Source: a virus. Taken from it: 38,990 nt of DNA. The stretch spans positions 1-38,990 of the IMG/VR virus record IMGVR_UViG_3300036851_000210, one strand, 5' to 3'. This document shows, piece after piece, positions 3 through 38,404 of the stretch (position 1 is its first letter; each line of letters starts with the position of its first letter). The notes beneath the pieces are model-generated. The model was not told where the DNA came from. It was given only the letters and a program-made list of their open reading frames with translations, and searched no databases. Position numbers and translations under genes: made by a program.

Positions 3-137
3 AACACGCTTGAAGTCGCCAGACCGCTATATTTTGCCGGATTGGGCACCGTAGACCGCGAAACCCGCATCGCAGCAGCCGAGCAAGACGGCAGAGCATT
101 TGCAGAGGAAATGAATGGCCGATTCAGTGGTAACTGA
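3..137 (+). CDS. C-terminal end of a phage gene, cut by the window edge
   Basis: An open frame enters from the left edge and ends at a TGA overlapping the portal start by 23 bases. The visible 44 residues contain the stretch ARPLYFAGLG and end in RFSGN. No family can be recognised from so little. Its position directly upstream of the portal, together with the small terminase gene at the other end of the window, makes the large terminase subunit or a small gene after it the likely identity; this is inference from gene order only. Confidence 0.5.
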   Translation, partial: NTLEVARPLYFAGLGTVDRETRIAAAEQDGRAFAEEMNGRFSGN

Positions 138-1980
138 GAAGCGGCGCTTCGACGCTAGGGATTTCGATACTATCTCGGAGTTTCTGCAAGAAGAATACGG
201 CGACAGGAAGCGCAAGCGCAAAGACAAAGAGGCTCAGTGGAAGGAAATCGACCGTCAATTGGCCATGGAGCCAAAGACGGCATACAAGATCAATCCATTT
301 ACTGGCCGTAAGAAGCCAGGAATGGCATGGCTTCCTGAAAAAGAGCTTCCCCTTCAAGCGCAAACGCTAGAGATTCTCTGCGCTGATGCTAGACGCATGA
401 TCTTTCCAGATAACGGGCCATGGTTCCGCGCCCATGCTCTGGTAACGGACGAGTACCTGCAAAAGGTCGATTTTGCCGCCATGATTTCTGGCGACGAGAA
501 CGACATCCCATCCCGCATCAATCAAGACAATGCCGACAAGCTGGTTGAGGGCGTTATCGGCAACCTGCATGAGGAGGCGGGCTTCTTTGCCCAGATCGAC
601 CGTTTTAATGCCGAAGCCTTCAAGTACGGCACTGGCGTTGGGCGTGTCCGCAAGGCCAAGAAGCCGGTCTATATCGAAACAGCCAGGGGAACCTCTAAGG
701 AGGAAACGCTACTCCCGGTGTTCTTTGCCACGTCGATTAAGGACACCTACCTGGACGAGACGCCGCAGTTTGTGATGCAGGAGGGCCACGTCTTAGGCCC
801 CGGCACCATCTTCTTTAAGCGCCAGAAGTTAACCGACCTACAGCTTGCCGCCAAGTACGGGTCTAAAGACCCGCACAATGAGGACGGCGGGTGGATGCCG
901 AAAGAGTTGAAGGACGTTGAGTCTGATAGCGATGGCTGTGTGGACACTATTCGCTGGGAAGGCGATTTGGTTGTTGACCGCAAGACGGTAGACAACATCT
1001 ACGTTCCTGGGGCGATCTGCACCGTGGTTGTCAGCGGGGGTAAGCCGCGCATCGTGCGTATGGCTTTCCGCGACAAGCCGTTTACCTCATACGTCACCCA
1101 GCCGTACCACATCGAGCAGGTTAATTCGCCATATGGCGTTAGCCCGCTGATGAAGGGTGAGCCGCTCCAAGCAGCGGCAACCGAGATGTTCTGCCGCCTG
1201 TTGCAGTCGGCAATTCTGGCTACTGAGCCTCCAATTCAGTACGACCCGGATGACCCCGGCTTTGCCTCTACTGGTGGCCCGATCATCGAGCCTCGCGCTC
1301 TCTGGGCCTCGTCTGGAGAAGTCACGCCGCACAAGATTGGTGATCCGCAAGCCTTGCTGTCGGCATACCAAGCCATTGTGACGCACTATTCCGATGTGAC
1401 TGGAATGCATGCTCCTCGGCTGGGCCAGCAAACGGTGTCGCACACCACGGCCTATGCCAAGGAGGCAGAGCTATCGCGCGGTCAGGTTAGGACGGTCGAT
1501 TACGCCAACTCCCTACTCGACGGCGCGCTAGGGCGCATCCTGGATATGCAATTTGCGTATCTCAGGGATGTGTGGACCACAGAACGTGACATCTGGATTC
1601 CAGACTATGGGGGATTTGTCCGAGTCATTAAGGACGCTATTCCTCCTGGCTGTATCTTTGAAATCTTCGGTTCTGCCGGTCCCGCCGAGCAACGGGCACG
1701 TCTACAAGACCAGATGGGAGCCATCCAACAGGTCATTCAGATCGACGCTCTGCAAAAGCAGATGGGTGTTGGTCAGCCTATGGACTATGACGCCATCAAG
1801 AAACTGATTCTGAAAAACGCAGGATTTGCCGATGTCGATGTCATCTTTGCCGCCGCAACTACAAACCCGGCTATCCCGGCTCCGGGCGGACCCGGAATTC
1901 CTGGAGCTACTCCGGGCGATCCCGGCACCACATCCACCGCGCTACAGGCGCTCGCTTTCGGCGGGGGCGGCGGAACTTAG
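115..1980 (+). CDS. Portal (head-tail connector) protein
   Basis: 621 residues, the usual size of podophage portals. It would form the dodecameric ring at the unique capsid vertex through which DNA is packaged and ejected. The region around residues 340-370 (PYGVSPLMKGEPLQ) matches the portal pattern in which a conserved Pro-Gly turn leads into a long helix, and the following helices are amphipathic. The last ~40 residues are Pro/Gly-rich low complexity. The start at 115 is chosen over the ATG at 111 because it is in frame and preceded by AGAGGA. Its position just before scaffold and capsid genes supports the call. The 3' end is overlapped in another frame by a small gene. Confidence 0.88.
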   Translation: MADSVVTEKRRFDARDFDTISEFLQEEYGDRKRKRKDKEAQWKEIDRQLAMEPKTAYKINPFTGRKKPGMAWLPEKELPLQAQTLEILCADARRMIFPDNGPWFRAHALVTDEYLQKVDFAAMISGDENDIPSRINQDNADKLVEGVIGNLHEEAGFFAQIDRFNAEAFKYGTGVGRVRKAKKPVYIETARGTSKEETLLPVFFATSIKDTYLDETPQFVMQEGHVLGPGTIFFKRQKLTDLQLAAKYGSKDPHNEDGGWMPKELKDVESDSDGCVDTIRWEGDLVVDRKTVDNIYVPGAICTVVVSGGKPRIVRMAFRDKPFTSYVTQPYHIEQVNSPYGVSPLMKGEPLQAAATEMFCRLLQSAILATEPPIQYDPDDPGFASTGGPIIEPRALWASSGEVTPHKIGDPQALLSAYQAIVTHYSDVTGMHAPRLGQQTVSHTTAYAKEAELSRGQVRTVDYANSLLDGALGRILDMQFAYLRDVWTTERDIWIPDYGGFVRVIKDAIPPGCIFEIFGSAGPAEQRARLQDQMGAIQQVIQIDALQKQMGVGQPMDYDAIKKLILKNAGFADVDVIFAAATTNPAIPAPGGPGIPGATPGDPGTTSTALQALAFGGGGGT

Positions 1981-2720: not shown

Positions 2721-2751
2721 GGTGCTGCTCACACTCTAAAGGAGCAGACCA

Positions 2752-3828
2752 ATGACTGTGACAGATACCACAGTTATCCAAAAGCCGGTAAACGTGATGT
2801 TTACGCGGCGCTTCTTGGAGCGTGCGCAGTATAAGACCCATTACTTTATGGGTTCCGATCCTGCTTCACTCTCCAAGAACGCAGGCACCGCCACCGCTTT
2901 GTGGCGGCGCATTGAGCATCTCACGCCTTCCACGACTGCACTGTCGGAGCTAACCGGCGAGGCTTATCCGACTCGCACTGGTGTCACTCCAACTGTGACT
3001 GACGTGCAGAAGGCCGTGAGCAAATACGGCACGCATATCCTCTTGAACGAGGAAGCCGATGTCTTCAACTTCAACGGCACGACCGCTGAGTTGCTCGACA
3101 TTCTGGCTGACAATGCGGGCCGCGTTGTGAACATGATCGTTCGCAACGAAGTGGAGGATAACGCTACCATTGTTTACACTGGTGGTGGCGCTTCTGATGG
3201 TAACACTTCTGCCGTGATTAACGCGCAGATTTTGAACTACACCATCAACATCCTCCAACGCAACGTGGCAGACACGTTCCTGGCCATGACTCGTGGCTCT
3301 GTGAATGTCGGCACCGTTCCGATCTTGGCAGCCTACTATGCGGCTTGCCACCCGGACGTGGCCTATGACGTTTCGCAGATCACCGGGTTCACTTCGGTTG
3401 AGAAGTATGCTGGTCAGGTGAGCGTGATGCCGGGTGAGTTTGGCTACTATGGCCTTGCTGGAACCGGCATTCGCTTCATGTCTACGCCAGATGCGTCCGT
3501 AGACTCAGGCTTGGGCGGCACCGGAGCCGGTGCTGGCGATAAGCGCACGTCTTCGGGCGACAACGCTGACCTCTACTCGACCGTGGTTTGGGGCCGCCAT
3601 GCCTTTGGCACCCTGGGTCTCGGCAAGGAGGTTCCAACCGATGCTGGAGATGTTGGACGCAAGATGTCCGTCATCGAAATCATCAACAAGCCGTTCGGCT
3701 CTGCCGGTACTGCTGACCCGCTCAACGAGTATTCCACGATGGGCTGGAAGGCATGGTGCGCAGCGAAAATCCTGAACTCCAATTGGCTCAGGACTATCCG
3801 TTCGGGTGCTACCGACATTAGCGACTAA
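2752..3828 (+). CDS. Major capsid protein, N4-gp56 type
   Basis: 358 residues forming the icosahedral shell. The N-terminal part (FLERAQYK, then TRTGVTPTVTDVQ) and the block YGTHILLNEEADVF at about residues 93-106 resemble the N4-gp56 major capsid family, in which a YG-x-x-x-LT/NEE element follows the N-terminal arm. The ATG at 2752 is preceded by AAAGGAG. The gene follows the scaffold directly. Codon use looks even and biased to GC-ending codons, as in a highly expressed gene. Confidence 0.85.
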   Translation: MTVTDTTVIQKPVNVMFTRRFLERAQYKTHYFMGSDPASLSKNAGTATALWRRIEHLTPSTTALSELTGEAYPTRTGVTPTVTDVQKAVSKYGTHILLNEEADVFNFNGTTAELLDILADNAGRVVNMIVRNEVEDNATIVYTGGGASDGNTSAVINAQILNYTINILQRNVADTFLAMTRGSVNVGTVPILAAYYAACHPDVAYDVSQITGFTSVEKYAGQVSVMPGEFGYYGLAGTGIRFMSTPDASVDSGLGGTGAGAGDKRTSSGDNADLYSTVVWGRHAFGTLGLGKEVPTDAGDVGRKMSVIEIINKPFGSAGTADPLNEYSTMGWKAWCAAKILNSNWLRTIRSGATDISD

Positions 3829-17480: not shown

Positions 17481-18309
17481 CTAAGGCGGAGCGGGCGTCT
17501 AGGATGCAGAGGCGCAGCAGGTCAGCCGGAGTATGTTCGGTGTCGTTCTTGCGCGCTTCTATTTTCTCTAGCGCCTCTCGCAATTTGGCTATCTCCTCCG
17601 CTTGGGAGGCGATGGTGGATTGGAGTATTACATTCGCTAGAGCCGCACGCTCAAGCCGCTCGATGGCGGCGGCGGATTCTTCTAGCGTCTCTGGCGCAAT
17701 GCAGACATAAGGCGCGTAGCAACATTCGCCGGGGCCATCTTTGTCGTCTGGGTCACGTCGCTTGACGGCCCTCTTCAACCGCTTCACCAGCGCACTGTCC
17801 CCGGTGGAGGGGGAGGGCTTGGTTGCGTGGCAGTAGATACAGACCCCATCTTGGGCGTAGTAATGCCCACATTCCTCTCCCCCAGGCTGAGCCGGGAGAG
17901 ATGACGGCGGCTCATAGACCGTTTTCGGCTGGTAGCGTTCTGGCAATCCAGCGAAGCCTTCCCCTCCCGATAGGGAGCCGGTAGCCGTCACAGGGTCGCA
18001 CTTATCCTGTGACGGCTGCGCTACAGGTCGTCTTGAATTATCGTCTTGGTCAGGCGGCATCACCTCCAGTCCATCTTCTCTCTCCTGTTGTTCCTCCCCG
18101 CTCGGGCAGCCATCATTCAGCCTAGGCATCGTCGCCTTTAATTCAGCGTCGGATTGCTGGATGGCGGCTTGCTCGGCTAATAGGCTACGGCGGGCGGCGG
18201 AGAACACAGCACTAATCTTCTGCGCGAATGGCGTTGTGTCTTGCCCAACAAGACGCCTCTCCAAATAGTCCAACTCCTCCACACTTAACGTCTCGCTGTC
18301 GTGGGTCAT
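17458..18309 (-). CDS. Large hypothetical protein with C-terminal coiled coil
   Basis: 283 residues. The N-terminal ~60 residues are helical (EELDYLERRLVG). The middle is acidic, Gly/Pro/Ser-rich and probably disordered, with a possible zinc pair CGHYYAQDGVCIYCHA at about residues 145-160. The C-terminus is a coiled coil (ASQAEEIAKLREALEKIEA). Phages often encode such modular proteins of unknown role. The ATG overlaps the HNH gene stop (ATGA), so it ends the leftward operon. Confidence 0.6.
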   Translation of the reverse strand: MTHDSETLSVEELDYLERRLVGQDTTPFAQKISAVFSAARRSLLAEQAAIQQSDAELKATMPRLNDGCPSGEEQQEREDGLEVMPPDQDDNSRRPVAQPSQDKCDPVTATGSLSGGEGFAGLPERYQPKTVYEPPSSLPAQPGGEECGHYYAQDGVCIYCHATKPSPSTGDSALVKRLKRAVKRRDPDDKDGPGECCYAPYVCIAPETLEESAAAIERLERAALANVILQSTIASQAEEIAKLREALEKIEARKNDTEHTPADLLRLCILDARSALASRTDEA

Positions 18310-23487: not shown

Positions 23488-24246
23488 ATGGGGGTAATTT
23501 CTGTGGCTGTGAAGCATTTGACTCGCCTGGGGGCCACACCAGAGCAGATTCTTGAGTTAATTCAAGAGCTTGAGGCCGAAATTGGAGTGCATAAACCAGC
23601 GACGGAACCAACCACTGATTTTGGTGGTAAAAACACCCAAGAGAATCAGTTAGTTACATCCGTATCTGGACAATATATAGATTATAAACCTGGGAAAGGG
23701 GATAGGGGGGTACGGGGGGAAAGGGGGAAACCCGTAAAAACTCCAACCACCGATCTGGAATTCAATCGCTTCTGGCAAATTTACCCACGCCGGGAGGCCA
23801 AGGGTGCCGCGCAGCGGGCATTCCGCTCGGCGCTCAAGCGTGGCGAAGTCGAGCCGATCTTGGCCGCAGCGCGGAAATACGCCGAAAAGCGCCGTGGCGA
23901 GGACAAGCAATACACCGCCATGGCCGCGACTTGGCTCAACCAGGACCGCTGGCTTGACGAGGAGCAAACCAAGCAATATCAAGTGCTTGATGGCCCAAAA
24001 CGGACTTATGCCGAAATCAAAGCGGAGAGGGAACGCAATGCGCTGGTATGCGGTGATGACGAAGGCCCGAAAAGAGGAGCTAGCCCAAAAAAATCTGCGT
24101 TTTCAAGGGTATCAGACTTTCTACCCGCACTACACGGAGTGGACCAACCCCAAGAAAACCAAGCCCCGTTGCTTGCGGAAGCCGTATCTGACGAGGTATC
24201 TTTTTGTGGGAATCCCTGGGACGAACCCGAAGCATTCGATCTATAA
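23488..24246 (+). CDS. Replication-O-like / helicase-loader-type protein
   Basis: 252 residues. Residues ~92-158 contain the block FNRFWQIYPRREAKG, a Lys/Arg-rich helix and ATWLNQDRW, which is the widespread C-terminal module of phage replication-O and DnaD/DnaT-like proteins used to bring in the host helicase. The N-terminus has a small helical part (TPEQILELIQELE). The last ~70 residues are overlapped by the NusG-like gene in another frame and look like secondary text. It probably starts DNA replication with the DnaA-IV-like protein. Confidence 0.65.
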   Translation: MGVISVAVKHLTRLGATPEQILELIQELEAEIGVHKPATEPTTDFGGKNTQENQLVTSVSGQYIDYKPGKGDRGVRGERGKPVKTPTTDLEFNRFWQIYPRREAKGAAQRAFRSALKRGEVEPILAAARKYAEKRRGEDKQYTAMAATWLNQDRWLDEEQTKQYQVLDGPKRTYAEIKAERERNALVCGDDEGPKRGASPKKSAFSRVSDFLPALHGVDQPQENQAPLLAEAVSDEVSFCGNPWDEPEAFDL

Positions 24247-24661
24247 CATCAACTGCACCATTGGGGTCTCCACGGTTGTTTATTGCGGCATAGAGGCCCT
24301 ACAAATCCCGCCCTGTATCATCGGAGAATTGAGGGGTAGAGCCGACGATTCTGGTGAGGTCCACCAAGAAAAACCAAATACAGGCTTCCCTGGCCGTCAC
24401 GGAGACCTTATCAAGTTCAAGGAAACCAGCCCGTTATTTGGCTTCCTGGCTGAGATAAAAAGTGTTGACAAGGGCGGTAAACTTATGGTAGAGTTAGACA
24501 AAATGTTGGGGACGGGCCGTCAGGTCGCGGTCAGCGTCTCGGATGTGGGGGCGATTATCCATCGGGTTAAGCCCCCACGGCCATCTAGGGCCTACCACGC
24601 AGAAAAGCGTTTTCTGCGGAATGGCGGTAGCCTGTGCCGAGGGGGTGACAATGGCCTTTAA
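24038..24661 (+). CDS. NusG/RfaH-like transcription elongation factor
   Basis: 207 residues from ATG 24038, behind GAGAGGGA and 209 bases inside the previous gene. The N-terminal domain has the NusG pattern: MRWYAVMTKARKEE, a helix, GYQTFYPHY, a basic stretch, then the strand YLTRYLFVGI and GVSTVVYCG. Residues ~120-160 (GDLIKFKETSPLFGFLAEI and on) match the KOW domain. NusG proteins bind RNA polymerase and reduce pausing; RfaH-type paralogues act only where an ops sequence occurs. The gene carries such a sequence and two strong hairpins near its end. It may be an antiterminator for phage transcription. Confidence 0.8.
   Translation: MRWYAVMTKARKEELAQKNLRFQGYQTFYPHYTEWTNPKKTKPRCLRKPYLTRYLFVGIPGTNPKHSIYNINCTIGVSTVVYCGIEALQIPPCIIGELRGRADDSGEVHQEKPNTGFPGRHGDLIKFKETSPLFGFLAEIKSVDKGGKLMVELDKMLGTGRQVAVSVSDVGAIIHRVKPPRPSRAYHAEKRFLRNGGSLCRGGDNGL
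24545..24618 (+). promoter_or_regulatory. Two strong hairpins near the end of the NusG-like gene
   Basis: GTGGGGGC (24545-24552) pairs with GCCCCCAC (24571-24578), and CGCAGAAAA (24598-24606) pairs with TTTTCTGCG (24610-24618) over a three-base loop. Both are perfect and lie inside coding sequence. No T-run follows at terminator distance. They precede an ops-like sequence by four bases. Confidence 0.6.
24623..24634 (+). promoter_or_regulatory. ops-like element
   Basis: GGCGGTAGCCTG matches the RfaH-recruiting ops pattern GGCGGTAGCGTG in 11 of 12 positions, including the GGCGGTAG core and the TG. It is four bases after a strong hairpin and 17 bases before the next gene, inside the 3' end of the NusG-like gene. 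In enterobacteria ops pauses polymerase and loads RfaH; whether the phage protein reads this site is not known. Confidence 0.45.
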
Positions 24662-32205: not shown

Positions 32206-32283
32206 TGGCAATGCAGCCCAGATTCGAACTGGGGTTTCCAAGCTTGAGGGGCGAGGCGTCCTAGACCGCTAGACGACTGCATT
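32206..32283 (-). tRNA. tRNA-Glu-like element with abnormal anticodon arm
   Basis: Acceptor AATGCAG/CTGCATT (7 perfect pairs), D-arm with GG, T-arm CCCAG-TTCGAAT-CTGGG, G73 and CCA are all present and resemble tRNA-Glu. The anticodon arm is wrong: CCTCGC/GCTTGG pairs with two central mismatches, the arm is two bases too long and the loop CCCTCAA has C where T33 should be. If functional, the anticodon is CTC. It may be a degenerate tRNA or a tRNA-like processing signal. Confidence 0.6.
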
Positions 32284-32289
32284 GTGAGT

Positions 32290-32368
32290 TGGTACTACAG
32301 CCTGGATTTGAACCAGGGTCTCCCTACCGAGCGGTAAGGTATCCTAGACCGGGCTAGACGAATGTAGT
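32290..32368 (-). tRNA. tRNA-like element with tetraloop in place of anticodon loop
   Basis: Six bases from the previous one. Acceptor ACTACAT/CTGTAGT (one mismatch), D-arm TCTAG with GG, T-arm CCTGG-TTCAAAT-CCAGG and CCA are present. The anticodon arm folds best as CC-bulge-TACC with a GCTC loop and GGTA-GG, so no seven-base anticodon loop is formed. A forced normal fold would give GCT, but with C37 and mismatches. It is more likely a decoy or a processing signal than a decoding tRNA. Confidence 0.5.
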
Positions 32369-32372
32369 ACGG

Positions 32373-32392
32373 TAGTGCTTTTAACAGCACTA
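32373..32392 (-). repeat. Inverted repeat of the post-terminator module, copy 1
   Basis: TAGTGCT and AGCACTA pair perfectly over six bases, directly after the terminator T-run on the minus strand and just upstream of the second tRNA-like element. It is one of four related copies with co-varying arms. Confidence 0.6.
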
Positions 32393-32458: not shown

Positions 32459-32827
32459 TTAGTTGATAGTACGGGGCTGGTTAGCCATACGGCTAAACCC
32501 AGCCATTTCGGCGCTGTTGACCATTTGCACATCAGCACCATAAGCGCCGCCGATCAACTTGATAGCCAGGGGAATGGCCAGTTCAGGCGGCAAACCGGAA
32601 TCGGCGCAAGCCGCAGCAAAGGCCATGCCGGTTGCAACGATAATGACCTGCATGTCGTCTCTGCTGAGAGTCTTCTCGTCCTTATTCAGAGGCTCTTTAT
32701 CGAGAACCTCTTTCTCGCTACGCGAGAGAGGCTTTACGCCGTATTTGTTGCCAACAAACTCAATGACCTGATCGCGCAGGTCACTGGCTTGTTTCAGCAT
32801 CTTGCAATGTTTTTCGTCATTGCACAT
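32459..32827 (-). CDS. Hypothetical protein
   Basis: 122 residues from ATG 32827, with GGGAGT in the leader CCCGATGGGAGTCGGAA; the frame is open upstream but covers the terminator-like region. A helical N-terminus with Cys (CNDEKHCKML) and Lys/Glu-rich helix is followed by a hydrophobic stretch (GMAFAAACADSGLPPELAIPLAIKL) that may be buried. No family is recognised. It stands as a single-gene unit between two terminators. Confidence 0.6.
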   Translation of the reverse strand: MCNDEKHCKMLKQASDLRDQVIEFVGNKYGVKPLSRSEKEVLDKEPLNKDEKTLSRDDMQVIIVATGMAFAAACADSGLPPELAIPLAIKLIGGAYGADVQMVNSAEMAGFSRMANQPRTIN

Positions 32828-32875
32828 TTCCGACTCCCATCGGGTTAAACATGCGGCATGGCGTACACCATGCCG

Positions 32876-32891
32876 AGTGCCAAACAGCACT
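32876..32891 (-). repeat. Inverted repeat of the post-terminator module, copy 2
   Basis: AGTGC and GCACT pair over six bases, right after the terminator T-run of the ATPase gene. One of four related copies. Confidence 0.55.
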
Positions 32892-32894
32892 AAT

Positions 32895-32929
32895 AAGCCC
32901 CCATACTGGTACAGCCAGTATAGGGGCTT
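32895..32929 (-). terminator. Terminator after the AAA+ ATPase gene
   Basis: AAGCCCC-x-ATACTGG pairs with the reverse half over five bases with one mismatch (15-base arms) and is followed on the minus strand by TTATTAG. It lies 22 bases after the ATPase stop. Confidence 0.8.
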
Positions 32930-32950
32930 GACTGGTGATGTTTAGTGTTC

Positions 32951-34418: not shown

Positions 34419-34439
34419 TTCCAACTCCATTGGGTTAAG

Positions 34440-34453
34440 CCAGTGTTAACTGG
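34440..34453 (-). repeat. CCAGT/ACTGG hairpin in the ATPase leader
   Basis: A short inverted repeat just upstream of the ribosome site of the ATPase gene and just after the copy 3 repeat. It may add to a structured 5' leader. Confidence 0.4.
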
Positions 34454-34455
34454 CT

Positions 34456-34475
34456 AGTGCTGCGGTAACAACACT
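34456..34475 (-). repeat. Inverted repeat of the post-terminator module, copy 3
   Basis: AGTGCT on the plus strand faces AACACT; in RNA read from the minus strand AGTGTT pairs with AGCACT through one G-U. One of four related copies with changed but still pairing arms. Confidence 0.55.
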
Positions 34476-34500
34476 AAAAAACCCCGCTAAATGCGGGGCT
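34474..34500 (-). terminator. Intrinsic terminator after the 34512 gene
   Basis: On the minus strand GCCCCGC-ATTTA-GCGGGG is followed by TTTTTTTAG, a textbook intrinsic terminator, 12 bases after the stop. Confidence 0.9.
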
Positions 34501-34511
34501 TGCTAGTGTGG

Positions 34512-34979
34512 TTAGCAGGCTATGGCCTGAAAAGCATATGGGACTTGTTGTTCGTCGTATGGGCGGCATCTGTCATATAGCGTGCCATCCACACTTGCGA
34601 TATAATGGCAAGCATAGAAATTGTTGGCGTATCCCCATCTGTAGAATAGGACAAAGCGTCCCCTCTTATGGTTGGCGGCGAACTCCAGCGGTGAATTGTT
34701 TTTATTCAGCGTCACCAGCTTGAAGCGATAACCGTTGAATTCACGGCATAGCATCAGCTTGTGTATGCTAGGGTACTTAGGCTCCACGAACATGAAGCTC
34801 TTAAGGACGGAAGCGTAGGTGCTGCTCGTCGCAATGGCGATAGCCCGTACTTGGCAGTCGCCGTTATGAGCATACCATGGCTGTTTAGAGCGCAAGTGGA
34901 ATTCATTAGCTCCACCATCTGTACGGATATAGCCAACATATTTCCGCCCGTACCGTATACGCTCAAGGTCGGGTTGCAT
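34512..34979 (-). CDS. Papain-like cysteine peptidase-type protein, copy A
   Basis: 155 residues. The block NGDCQVRAIAIATSSTYASV (C42) and, near the C-terminus, ACHYIASVDGTLYD (H125, D136) match the Cys-His-Asp/Asn order of papain-like phage proteins, in which a DC-x-VRA helix starts the fold. A basic middle (KRGRFVLFYRW) separates them. It has a clear relative at 35425-35838 with the same layout. Activity is inferred; an inactive fold or transferase role is possible. Confidence 0.6.
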   Translation of the reverse strand: MQPDLERIRYGRKYVGYIRTDGGANEFHLRSKQPWYAHNGDCQVRAIAIATSSTYASVLKSFMFVEPKYPSIHKLMLCREFNGYRFKLVTLNKNNSPLEFAANHKRGRFVLFYRWGYANNFYACHYIASVDGTLYDRCRPYDEQQVPYAFQAIAC

Positions 34980-34982
34980 GGG

Positions 34983-35126
34983 CTACATTCCCCAGATTTC
35001 AGAGCGCCAGTCATTCTCCTGGCAAGCGCGCAGATACTTAATCTCAGCTTGAGCGTGTAAGTATTTGCGATAGCCAATATAGTAACCAGCGCAAAATGCT
35101 AGCACTATAGTTATAGTTGTCCACAT
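34983..35126 (-). CDS. 47-residue single-span membrane protein
   Basis: ATG 35126 in the leader ACCCGATGGAGTTGGAAATG. A hydrophobic N-terminus (TTITIVLAFCAGYYIGY) is followed by a charged helix. The stop lies three bases before the peptidase start, so the two are co-transcribed. It may hold a partner at the membrane; unknown. Confidence 0.5.
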   Translation of the reverse strand: MWTTITIVLAFCAGYYIGYRKYLHAQAEIKYLRACQENDWRSEIWGM

Positions 35127-35145
35127 TTCCAACTCCATCGGGTTC

Positions 35146-35164
35146 GTGTTGCACTTAACAACAC
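35146..35164 (-). repeat. Inverted repeat of the post-terminator module, copy 4
   Basis: GTGTTG and CAACAC pair perfectly over seven bases, directly after the terminator T-run. The arm sequence differs from copies 1-3 at positions that still pair. Confidence 0.6.
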
Positions 35165-35193
35165 TAATAAGCCCACTATCGCACAGTGGGCTT
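35165..35193 (-). terminator. Terminator after the 35205 gene
   Basis: AAGCCCACT pairs with AGTGGGCTT over seven bases and is followed on the minus strand by TTATTAG, 12 bases after the stop. Confidence 0.8.
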
Positions 35194-35204
35194 GATTGCT
35201 GTTG

Positions 35205-35441
35205 TTAGATTTCCCAGCAAGTAAACTGGACGCCTAAGCCATGGTAATCAGGCTGGCCACGATATGTCTCCACAGCGGGGCATAGTGTTGGGTCCGACAG
35301 GATAAGTTCTGCTTGAGCCTTAATAGCCAGAAATTCCGTTGTCTGGATATGGTAGGCCCAAGACATTAGGCCGATGATGCCAATCATGCAGTAGACCATC
35401 AGCCATAGGCACATTTCATCGAAGTTATGCAAAGTGCGCAT
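35205..35441 (-). CDS. 78-residue membrane protein
   Basis: ATG 35441 behind CGGAG, overlapping the papain-like gene by 17 bases. A hydrophobic span (MCLWLMVYCMIGIIGLMSWAY, residues ~9-29) is followed by a Glu/Asp/Pro-rich soluble part with two Cys. The frame is open much further upstream but lies inside the papain-like gene. No family is recognised. Confidence 0.55.
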   Translation of the reverse strand: MRTLHNFDEMCLWLMVYCMIGIIGLMSWAYHIQTTEFLAIKAQAELILSDPTLCPAVETYRGQPDYHGLGVQFTCWEI

Positions 35442-36124: not shown

Positions 36125-36514
36125 CTAGTTCAGTATTGCGGTGGATAGTCGGAATCTTTCCGCTACATCCGCAACATTGCGCTTGAACAAGGTAAGGAAA
36201 TCTTCCGCCAAGTCATACTCATTCTTGGCTGCCTCGTCATGGGCAACCTGTAGTTCAGTGAGCAAACCCTCGTGCTCACCAAACATTGACCGGAGGTTGG
36301 GATAGTCCTGCAATAGTATATGGACAGGCTTATCCTCCATATGCTCCTCGTATAGTTCATCTGGAATTAGTATTCCAAATGCACATTTGCGGTTGTGGTT
36401 AGGGTCGCGGTATAGGCAGACGAAACCATCTCTATCATCTAGCCTATAGCCCGCAGGACCGCCTTGGGCGATAACGCCGCCCACAGAACGGTCAAAGATT
36501 TCTTGTGGTGTCAT
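36125..36514 (-). CDS. Phage hypothetical protein (Cys-Ala-Ile type)
   Basis: 129 residues from ATG 36514. The pattern TPQEIFDRSVGGVIAQGGPA, then CLYRDPNHNRKCAFGILIPDEL with a later Y/M-E pair, is that of a protein common in phage early regions (a KCA-x-G-x-LIPDE core); its function is unknown. Its ribosome site GAGGCGAC is inside a seven-pair hairpin that touches the ATG. Confidence 0.6.
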   Translation of the reverse strand: MTPQEIFDRSVGGVIAQGGPAGYRLDDRDGFVCLYRDPNHNRKCAFGILIPDELYEEHMEDKPVHILLQDYPNLRSMFGEHEGLLTELQVAHDEAAKNEYDLAEDFLTLFKRNVADVAERFRLSTAILN

Positions 36515-36538
36515 GTCGCCTCGCTTTCTCAAGGCGAC
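36515..36538 (-). promoter_or_regulatory. Hairpin sequestering the ribosome site of the 36514 gene
   Basis: On the minus strand GTCGCCT pairs with AGGCGAC over ten bases, ending exactly at the ATG. The second arm is the only ribosome site. It should lower translation unless opened, so it could be a switch. Confidence 0.5.
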
Positions 36539-36551
36539 TCTTTGTTTCCCA

Positions 36552-36597
36552 CAGATAACAGAAAGGGCCGAGAGACTAAGCTCCCGGCCCTTATCTG
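36552..36597 (-). terminator. Terminator closing the non-coding unit at 36.6-37.1 kb
   Basis: GGGCCG..CGGCCC with an inner AG/CT pair, extended by CAGATAA/TTATCTG on the outside, forms a long hairpin. The minus strand shows TTTCTGTT after it. No gene lies between it and the previous terminator, so it would end a non-coding transcript. Confidence 0.6.
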
Positions 36598-37118
36598 CAT
36601 TGTCCCAATAGGATTGGAATCAGAAAGTCAAATCTCCAGTGCATGGTGAATCCAATGCGTGGAGATTCGACCACTAGCCTATTCGCTAAACGCGGCACGG
36701 CGTCTCGGTTAAGGCTATTACGGGCCGCTTATGGTCAATCCCATGCCCGACCTTAACCGCGCCCATGCTCGCAAGGCATAGCGTGTTTGGCTAATGTGCT
36801 CGATTCGATTGTCTAAGAGCCTGCCAAGGTTCAGGGCTTGTTTTGGCGTTTAGCACGCTTGGCGATTGCCCTAATGCGGCGAGGCTCTTAGATGCTAAGC
36901 CATTGATTCGCGGGGCGAATTTCGAGCTGGCAGGATGCCACGGCACGGCCCGCGTGCGCAAGCGAAAAAATTTCGCGCGGCGGTTGCAAGCCGGTTGTGG
37001 CTGGCAGGGAAGCCCGTACAAGCCCGGAAGGCTTGCCCGGTAGTCGGCAACGGGCCGAAGGCTTGCGGGGCGTGTGGCGCGATCCTGGCGCGGCTGGCTG
37101 GCAAAATCCGGGCAACAA
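36598..37118 (-). ncRNA. Candidate structured non-coding RNA, about 520 nt
   Basis: No convincing gene lies here. Perfect or near-perfect arms occur one after another: AATCTCCA/TGGAGATT (36631-36667), CGGTTAAGG/CCTTAACCG with CGGGC/GCCCG inside (36706-36759), CTAAGAGCCT/AGGCTCTTAG with AGGGC/GCCCT inside (36813-36891), ATTCG/CGAAT (36906-36920), TGGCA/TGCCA (36928-36940), GCACG/CGTGC (36943-36957), GCGAAA/TTTCGC (36962-36976) and CAAGCC/GGCTTG (37019-37035). Terminators bound it on both sides in the leftward direction. No promoter is evident, and an origin or packaging region is an alternative. Confidence 0.5.
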
Positions 37119-37158
37119 AAAACCCGGTAGGGCGAACCGTACCGGGTTAGGTTTTTGC
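37119..37158. terminator. Bidirectional terminator after the 37566 gene
   Basis: AACCCGGT pairs with ACCGGGTT over 12 bases. On the minus strand TTTTTTG follows; on the plus strand AGGTTTTTG follows. It lies 9 bases past the stop of the leftward gene and so ends it, and it also blocks rightward transcripts. Confidence 0.85.
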
Positions 37159-37167
37159 TAGTGGAGC

Positions 37168-37566
37168 TTACTTGCCTTTGCCTTTGGGCTTGTCGGCAGA
37201 AACCGGCGTTCCCCATTTGGCGGCTGGCGCCTTAGCTTTCCGCTCGATTTTGGCTTCGACAGGAATAGCCGCAAGGCTGAACTTGCCGAAGTTATAGCCG
37301 TAAATCGGCGTGAAACCTTCGGGAACCATCGGCCTATCATGGCCGTCATGCGGGACGGTTGCTGTGGTACTTAATGCCGTAGCTTCCGCTTCCATCTTGG
37401 TCTCGATTGCCTTTACCGCCTGAACAAGCGTCTTGCGCTCATCAAACAAGGCTTGCAGATTGCCGACAAGCGGGACCTCGTGATATTTGGGCTTGATTGT
37501 GGTCTTGCCGGTGTCCTTGTCGGTCTTGACTGTGACTGTCCAAGGGTGCGTTTTGGCATGCTGCAT
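37168..37566 (-). CDS. Hypothetical basic protein
   Basis: 132 residues from ATG 37566, with the leader TTATGGAGTCC; two further in-frame ATGs lie just upstream. A central helix (LFDERKTLVQAVKAIETKMEAEA) and a Lys/Ala/Pro-rich C-terminus (KIERKAKAPAAKWG, ending KPKGKGK) are visible. No family is recognised. It is the first leftward gene after the terminase region and has its own terminator. Confidence 0.6.
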   Translation of the reverse strand: MQHAKTHPWTVTVKTDKDTGKTTIKPKYHEVPLVGNLQALFDERKTLVQAVKAIETKMEAEATALSTTATVPHDGHDRPMVPEGFTPIYGYNFGKFSLAAIPVEAKIERKAKAPAAKWGTPVSADKPKGKGK

Positions 37567-37590
37567 AGTGGACTCCATAAGTTGTGCCAT

Positions 37591-37783: not shown

Positions 37784-38404
37784 ATGCCGAACTATCCTCG
37801 CACGCGGAAAGCTAAGCAAAGCCAAAGGCTTGCGGCGGTTGCAGACCCGGAATCGGGCTTACCTAAGCTCACTGCAAAGCAGGAAAGATTTGCGCTAGAA
37901 TTACTTTCTGGCAAATCAGCAAGGGAAGCATATAGACTAGCTTATGACTGTTCCAAGTGTAGTGAAGCCACTGTTACGGCCCATGCGTTCAAAGCAACGC
38001 GTAACGCTCAAATCGCGCTTTTTATTCGTCTCCACCAACGGATCGGCCTAGAAAACGCTGCAATATCAATGGGTTCGCACTTAGCTGAACTAGCACGACT
38101 CCGTGAGCTTGCGGTGGAGAATCAGCAAGTAAGCGCTGGCGTTCAGGCCGAACACTACAGAGGCCGCGTTGCTGGCCTATACAACGACAAGCTAACCTTA
38201 GCTGTCGGCCCAAGCGACGATGCCATTCTAAGCCAATTAGCCGCGATTTTTGGCCATGAATCGGCGGAAGCTATCGGGGAAGCCCTTGGCGTCAAACGTG
38301 GCTCTGCGGTTATCCTAGAGGCTACAAACGACAGCCATACCCTTGCCCTGCCTTCGCCGCTTGAGTCTTCCCCGCATGGGGACAAGGAAACTGATTTGCC
38401 ATAA
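37784..38404 (+). CDS. Terminase small subunit
   Basis: 206 residues from ATG 37784 behind AAAGGA; the frame is open further upstream but that part lies over a hairpin. The block LTAKQERFALELLSGKSARE (residues 29-48) and the following helix with CSKCSEATVTAHAFKATRNAQI is the Terminase_2-type DNA-binding domain with N-terminal helix-turn-helix. Residues ~90-160 form the central oligomerisation helix, and the C-terminus is flexible. It picks the phage DNA and feeds it to the large subunit, which lies outside or at the edge of the window. Confidence 0.85.
   Translation: MPNYPRTRKAKQSQRLAAVADPESGLPKLTAKQERFALELLSGKSAREAYRLAYDCSKCSEATVTAHAFKATRNAQIALFIRLHQRIGLENAAISMGSHLAELARLRELAVENQQVSAGVQAEHYRGRVAGLYNDKLTLAVGPSDDAILSQLAAIFGHESAEAIGEALGVKRGSAVILEATNDSHTLALPSPLESSPHGDKETDLP

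Follow-up and report, generated by a model that had tools for sequence, protein, structure and literature searches.

A terminator-bounded structured segment in the leftward gene cluster of a podovirus-like phage is a candidate non-coding RNA gene

Our analyses revealed a non-coding segment, closed on both sides by leftward intrinsic terminators, whose 3′ ~350 nt are probably a real structured RNA, as judged from the predicted fold. The window analyzed is the whole of IMG/VR virus record IMGVR_UViG_3300036851_000210, positions 1 to 38,990. Our leading reading, on which we place about half of our confidence, is that the segment is a phage-encoded structured non-coding RNA gene that would occupy one slot of a leftward transcription unit.

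The gene content of the record, as seen in PHROG and protein matches, is podovirus-like, with a portal, a major head protein and a terminase small subunit (TerS), and the phage looks like an unclassified podovirus. The portal protein has three close IMG/VR relatives (L005, 81%; L006, 82%; L007, 74%) and many more at 42 to 54%. None of the tested proteins was recognized as a large terminase, the gene for which is found a few kb upstream of the portal gene in the relative L005; the record is therefore probably incomplete. When the right end of the record was compared with the DNA of annotated phages, nothing alike was returned. The candidate segment lies in this part, in a cluster of leftward genes, with a single gene between it and TerS, which is divergent and starts ~0.9 kb away (Table 1). 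Elsewhere, the start of the major head protein gene (positions 2721–3060) has a predicted fold much stronger than that of shuffled controls, on either strand.

Table 1. Coordinates of the candidate segment, its parts and the genes discussed
Feature	Position	Strand	Details
Portal/head-tail adaptor	115–1980		
Major head protein	2752–3828		
NusG/RfaH-like protein	24038–24661	plus	Pfam NusG PF02357, E 5.7e-10, 40 bits vs cut-off 22.2
Inter-gene terminators with recurring outer repeat, then hairpin and near-constant RBS block	32838–32938, 34426–34525, 35143–35262		
Next leftward gene	36125–36532	minus	PHROG 17693, unknown function
T2, downstream intrinsic terminator	36552–36597	minus	Stem 36563–36592, inside outer CAGAUAA/UUAUCUG repeat; terminator scan; z −5.83
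Small hairpin between HC and T2	36601–36622	minus	MFE fold of 36598–36905
Stem-loop HC	36627–36671	minus	GUCGAAUCUCCA/UGGAGAUUUGAC stem; inverted repeat I7
Stem-loop HB	36672–36796	minus	Long imperfect hairpin, ~45 bp, internal loops
Stem-loop HA	36812–36892	minus	11-bp perfect outer stem UCUAAGAGCCU/AGGCUCUUAGA, inner stem(s); inverted repeat I8
GC-rich (66%) non-coding 5′ part, 219 nt, without excess structure	36900–37118	minus	z-score, ensemble, no coding signal
T1, upstream intrinsic terminator	37119–37158	minus	UUCG-loop stem 37121–37148, then U-tract; closes gene 37168–37590; inverted repeat I9
Preceding leftward gene	37168–37590	minus	Good codon score; no relatives found
Terminase small subunit (TerS)	37784–38404	plus	PHROG 51, E 1.2e-10; divergent from leftward unit

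The two terminators, T1 and T2, are separated by 521 nt. T2 was returned by the terminator scan as a canonical intrinsic terminator, while T1, the stem of which contains one mismatch, was missed by the scan and emerged from the search for inverted repeats. In a sensitive BLAST search, the matches to the interval were confined to its two ends. Specifically, T2 matches a hairpin of Stenotrophomonas phages with 91% identity across 35 nt (best E 1e-3), and T1 gives a match, weak on its own (E 0.2–0.6), to a hairpin of Rhizobium phages. These hairpins follow a gene at a distance of 29 nt and 20 nt, respectively, and both matches are in the same orientation. Their assignment as terminators is thus independently supported by likeness to gene 3′ sequences of unrelated phages. 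Within the interval, the codon scores of the open reading frames are negative in every frame, compared with +0.07 to +0.17 in frame for most real neighboring genes, and these frames gave zero Pfam matches, and on these grounds a protein-coding reading was rejected. Both the leftward terminators and the lack of a credible gene between them, as given in a preliminary description of this DNA, were therefore borne out.

That description had also proposed comparing folding energies with shuffled controls on both strands. The minus-strand RNA of 36552–37158 has a predicted folding energy of −269 kcal/mol compared to −212 ± 5.6 kcal/mol for shuffled sequences, corresponding to a z-score of −10.2 (20 shuffles), and the plus strand gives −4.7; given the small shuffle numbers, all such z-scores are approximate. 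The excess is unevenly distributed. Without T2, the 3′ half (36598–36899) gives z-scores of −7.5 on the minus and −4.5 on the plus strand, and its ensemble is well defined, with a mean MFE pair probability of 0.91 and 82% of pairs above 0.9. In contrast, the folding energy of the adjoining 36900–37118 is that expected of shuffled copies (z 0.02 on the minus strand and 0.24 on the plus), and its ensemble is ill-defined, with 11% of pairs above 0.9 and a mean MFE pair probability of 0.69. This GC-rich stretch is possibly a leader or promoter region. Thus, the structured unit spans ~350 nt at the 3′ side, preceded by an unstructured stretch, and the ~520-nt unit originally described holds for 36552–36899 but not for its 5′ part.

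The predicted fold of these ~350 nt (36552–36899, minus strand) is an unbranched row of simple stem-loops, HA, HB and HC, followed by a small hairpin and T2; the "eight or more inverted repeats" noted earlier come down to these three large imperfect stem-loops, the one small hairpin and the terminator. Among 458 windows of 340 nt covering the whole record on both strands, 36552–36891 on the minus strand has the largest energy excess, with single 120-nt windows elsewhere in the record coming close. On the minus strand, HA has a z-score of −3.99 (0 of 200 shuffles as good), HB of −4.24 (36675–36800) or −4.84 (36671–36812), with an independent SVM z-score of −5.79, and HC of −4.49 (36598–36675), values that coding segments of the window and its relatives match on single 120- to 140-nt stretches. 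The preference for the minus strand is one of folding energies only; G-U pairs do not mark one strand, with 10 on the minus and 11 on the plus.

Could such a fold arise without a dedicated function? The interval may be the remnant of a gene, or a gap that has gathered the 3′- and 5′-end hairpins of its neighbors, and its structure may do no more than terminate transcription and stabilize mRNA. Hairpins are indeed common between the leftward genes, excess structure is lacking in the 5′ part of the interval, and a homologue was absent in everything we searched. However, HA, HB and HC are each significant independently, and their combined fold is the strongest in the record; moreover, long non-coding gaps are selected against in phage genomes. 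We consider this explanation rather unlikely.

The arrangement of the neighboring genes bears on what the segment could be. Near the segment, the leftward genes repeat one pattern, in which a terminator flanked by the two arms of an outer repeat, AACAACAC...GTGTTGTT or a variant, is followed by a small hairpin, an RBS block and the gene. The RBS block, AACCCRATGGAGTTGGAAATG, occurs at 35124 and 34416 and more loosely at 32825. In the next leftward gene, a GUCGCCU/AGGCGAC hairpin lies in the start region and covers the likely RBS. Near-identical terminators also follow three of the leftward genes of the relative G002 (L039). Because several neighboring leftward genes share this plan of terminator, 5′ hairpin, RBS and gene, the segment fits as one more cassette; in this plan, it would be a slot filled by an RNA in place of a reading frame.

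The reading as an RNA gene is therefore favored by the stronger folding of the minus strand than of the plus, the rank of 1 in 458, the well-defined ensemble, the lack of coding potential, the terminators on both sides and the cassette plan. Counting against it are the lack of a homologue, the lack of a convincing sigma-70 promoter near the segment, the undecided G-U pairs and the presence of long imperfect hairpins elsewhere in the phage group. Were there such a gene, leftward transcription would start at a promoter in the GC-rich 36900–37118 or read through from the preceding gene, with the transcript ending at 36563–36552. The product, a separate RNA ~350 nt long (up to ~520 nt), would then accumulate, shielded by its 3′ terminator hairpin. 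With low confidence, we suggest that during infection this RNA might have a trans-acting role, its structure serving as a scaffold or decoy for a partner that is either a protein or another RNA.

The main rival to the RNA-gene reading, possible but unlikely in our estimation, draws on analogy with known antitermination systems. The segment could act in cis in the nascent RNA near the start of the leftward operon, as a put-like element or a loading site for the phage's NusG paralogue, rendering RNA polymerase terminator-resistant and allowing read-through between the leftward genes. Several of these genes are parted by intrinsic-terminator-like hairpins that leave too little room for an obvious promoter, and the phage encodes a NusG-family protein, as does G002 (L039:6324-7001, PF02357 E 1.5e-15). 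The presence of this NusG/RfaH-like protein suggests phage-specific control of elongation or termination, and on its sequence the protein is a candidate trans factor for antitermination. In G002, moreover, a structured segment (L039:15139-15261) lies directly ahead of the first leftward gene beside TerS, with no terminator call between. There are also precedents: the HK022 putRNA, ~70 nt with two stem-loops, lies downstream of an early promoter (PMC9378689), and LoaP binds a small UNCG hairpin in an operon leader (PMC12691694). As with putRNA, the hairpins described here belong to a phage operon rich in terminators, and as in the LoaP/RfaH systems a NusG-family protein is encoded together with leftward genes that carry intrinsic terminators. 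Unlike putRNA, however, the segment is bounded by terminators and lies downstream of the leader, with a gene and its terminator between it and the likely leftward start, and its length is several times that of putRNA or the dfn hairpin. Binding of a leader hairpin is LoaP's feature; what is read here is a NusG-like gene and hairpins only. Matches to ops-like sites were not above chance, and the two phages have no sequence in common at these elements. UUCG loops do occur, at the level of sequence, in the phage's terminators. A bolder version, which we regard as a long shot, is a new class of phage RNA in which a three-hairpin nascent RNA, together with the phage's own NusG/RfaH-like protein, would make polymerase ignore inter-gene terminators, with an equivalent, sequence-unrelated element in the relative.

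Returning to the RNA-gene reading, we compared the segment with the large structured non-coding RNAs ROOL and GOLLD, the functions of which are unknown. Published members of these phage families range from ~660 (659) to >800 nt, have elaborate folds and are often near tRNA islands (PMC12286853). The segment resembles them as a structured non-coding RNA candidate encoded by a phage. Unlike these RNAs (~600–900 nt, branched), however, it consists of ~350 nt of serial hairpins in a 521-nt cassette, and of the three tRNAs scattered over the window the nearest (32206–32283) is 4.3 kb distant. Rfam, including ROOL and GOLLD, gave zero matches to the segment at the gathering score, in a search of the whole window, and zero at E ≤ 10 in 36500–37200. 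Identity with ROOL or GOLLD is thus ruled out by the negative Rfam search, a length of about half, the unbranched fold and the lack of a tRNA island. From the dedicated non-coding layout initially proposed, the structured non-coding segment closed by leftward terminators and folding better on the minus than the plus strand stands, but the large ornate RNA does not, as the structured part is a ~350-nt series of simple stem-loops and the Rfam covariance check was negative. Immediately upstream of tRNA-Glu, positions 32292–32380 (minus strand) also resemble a tRNA; called by neither ARAGORN nor Rfam, this second sequence is perhaps a degenerate tRNA.

Searches for relatives of the segment were likewise negative. 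DNA BLAST of phages and plasmids returned only terminator matches or chance matches. No homologue was found by BLAST over the records of 26 relatives, by BLAST and nhmmer over 117 loci (1.2 Mb), or when 45 sources (597 kb) were searched with covariance models, each built from one sequence, of HA and HB. Pattern scans of IMG/VR gave few matches, all by chance, and a 22-nt match in L007 and the matches L128, L129 and L133 were also judged to be chance. The closest relative, G002, has a portal 81% and a TerS 54% identical to those encoded here. On both sides of its TerS, the non-coding DNA of G002 carries long imperfect hairpins of its own (L039:15139-15261, 17752-17834 and 17838-17949, the latter two within 17752-17949; minus-strand finds), similar in look to those of the window and unrelated in sequence. 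The likeness may be meaningless, or it may reflect a layout common to both phages in which the sequences turn over rapidly. By eye, no such structure was evident upstream of TerS in the more distant relatives L049–L051, and no comparable structured segment was adjacent to the PHROG 17693 relatives in L004 and Cr30. In an unrelated contig, one long imperfect hairpin (L002:3635-3760) lies upstream of a PHROG 17693 homologue; it may be a terminator.

The G002 hairpins also bear on whether the inverted repeats might act in DNA, forming a site close to the terminase gene for packaging (pac/cos) or recombination. A packaging site stays a candidate because the TerS start is ~0.9 kb away; the hairpin-rich non-coding DNA flanks TerS on both sides in G002 as well, and the plus strand of the segment also folds better than chance. 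Nevertheless, the excess is larger for the minus-strand RNA, the segment is closed by transcription terminators, and the palindromes of the relative place the origin elsewhere. We judge a DNA-level site to be distinctly improbable. As to that origin, G002 has repeated GGACTCCAAAATGGAGTCC-type palindromes inside its replication-initiator gene (L039:5762-6038), in a lambda-O-like origin layout, and the homologue of this gene in the window (23488–24246) is 12 kb from the segment. No iterons were found in the segment. On these sequence comparisons the segment is probably not a replication origin, and the origin put forward earlier as an alternative is disfavored.

At present, the segment is a well-supported predicted fold without a family match or homologue. 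If transcribed, it would be a phage non-coding RNA outside any described family, from a lineage that has scarcely any annotated relatives and encodes a NusG-type elongation factor of its own, and thus an addition to the small set of structured RNAs from phages. It would also be a specific starting point for studying how an operon filled with terminators is expressed in this phage group.
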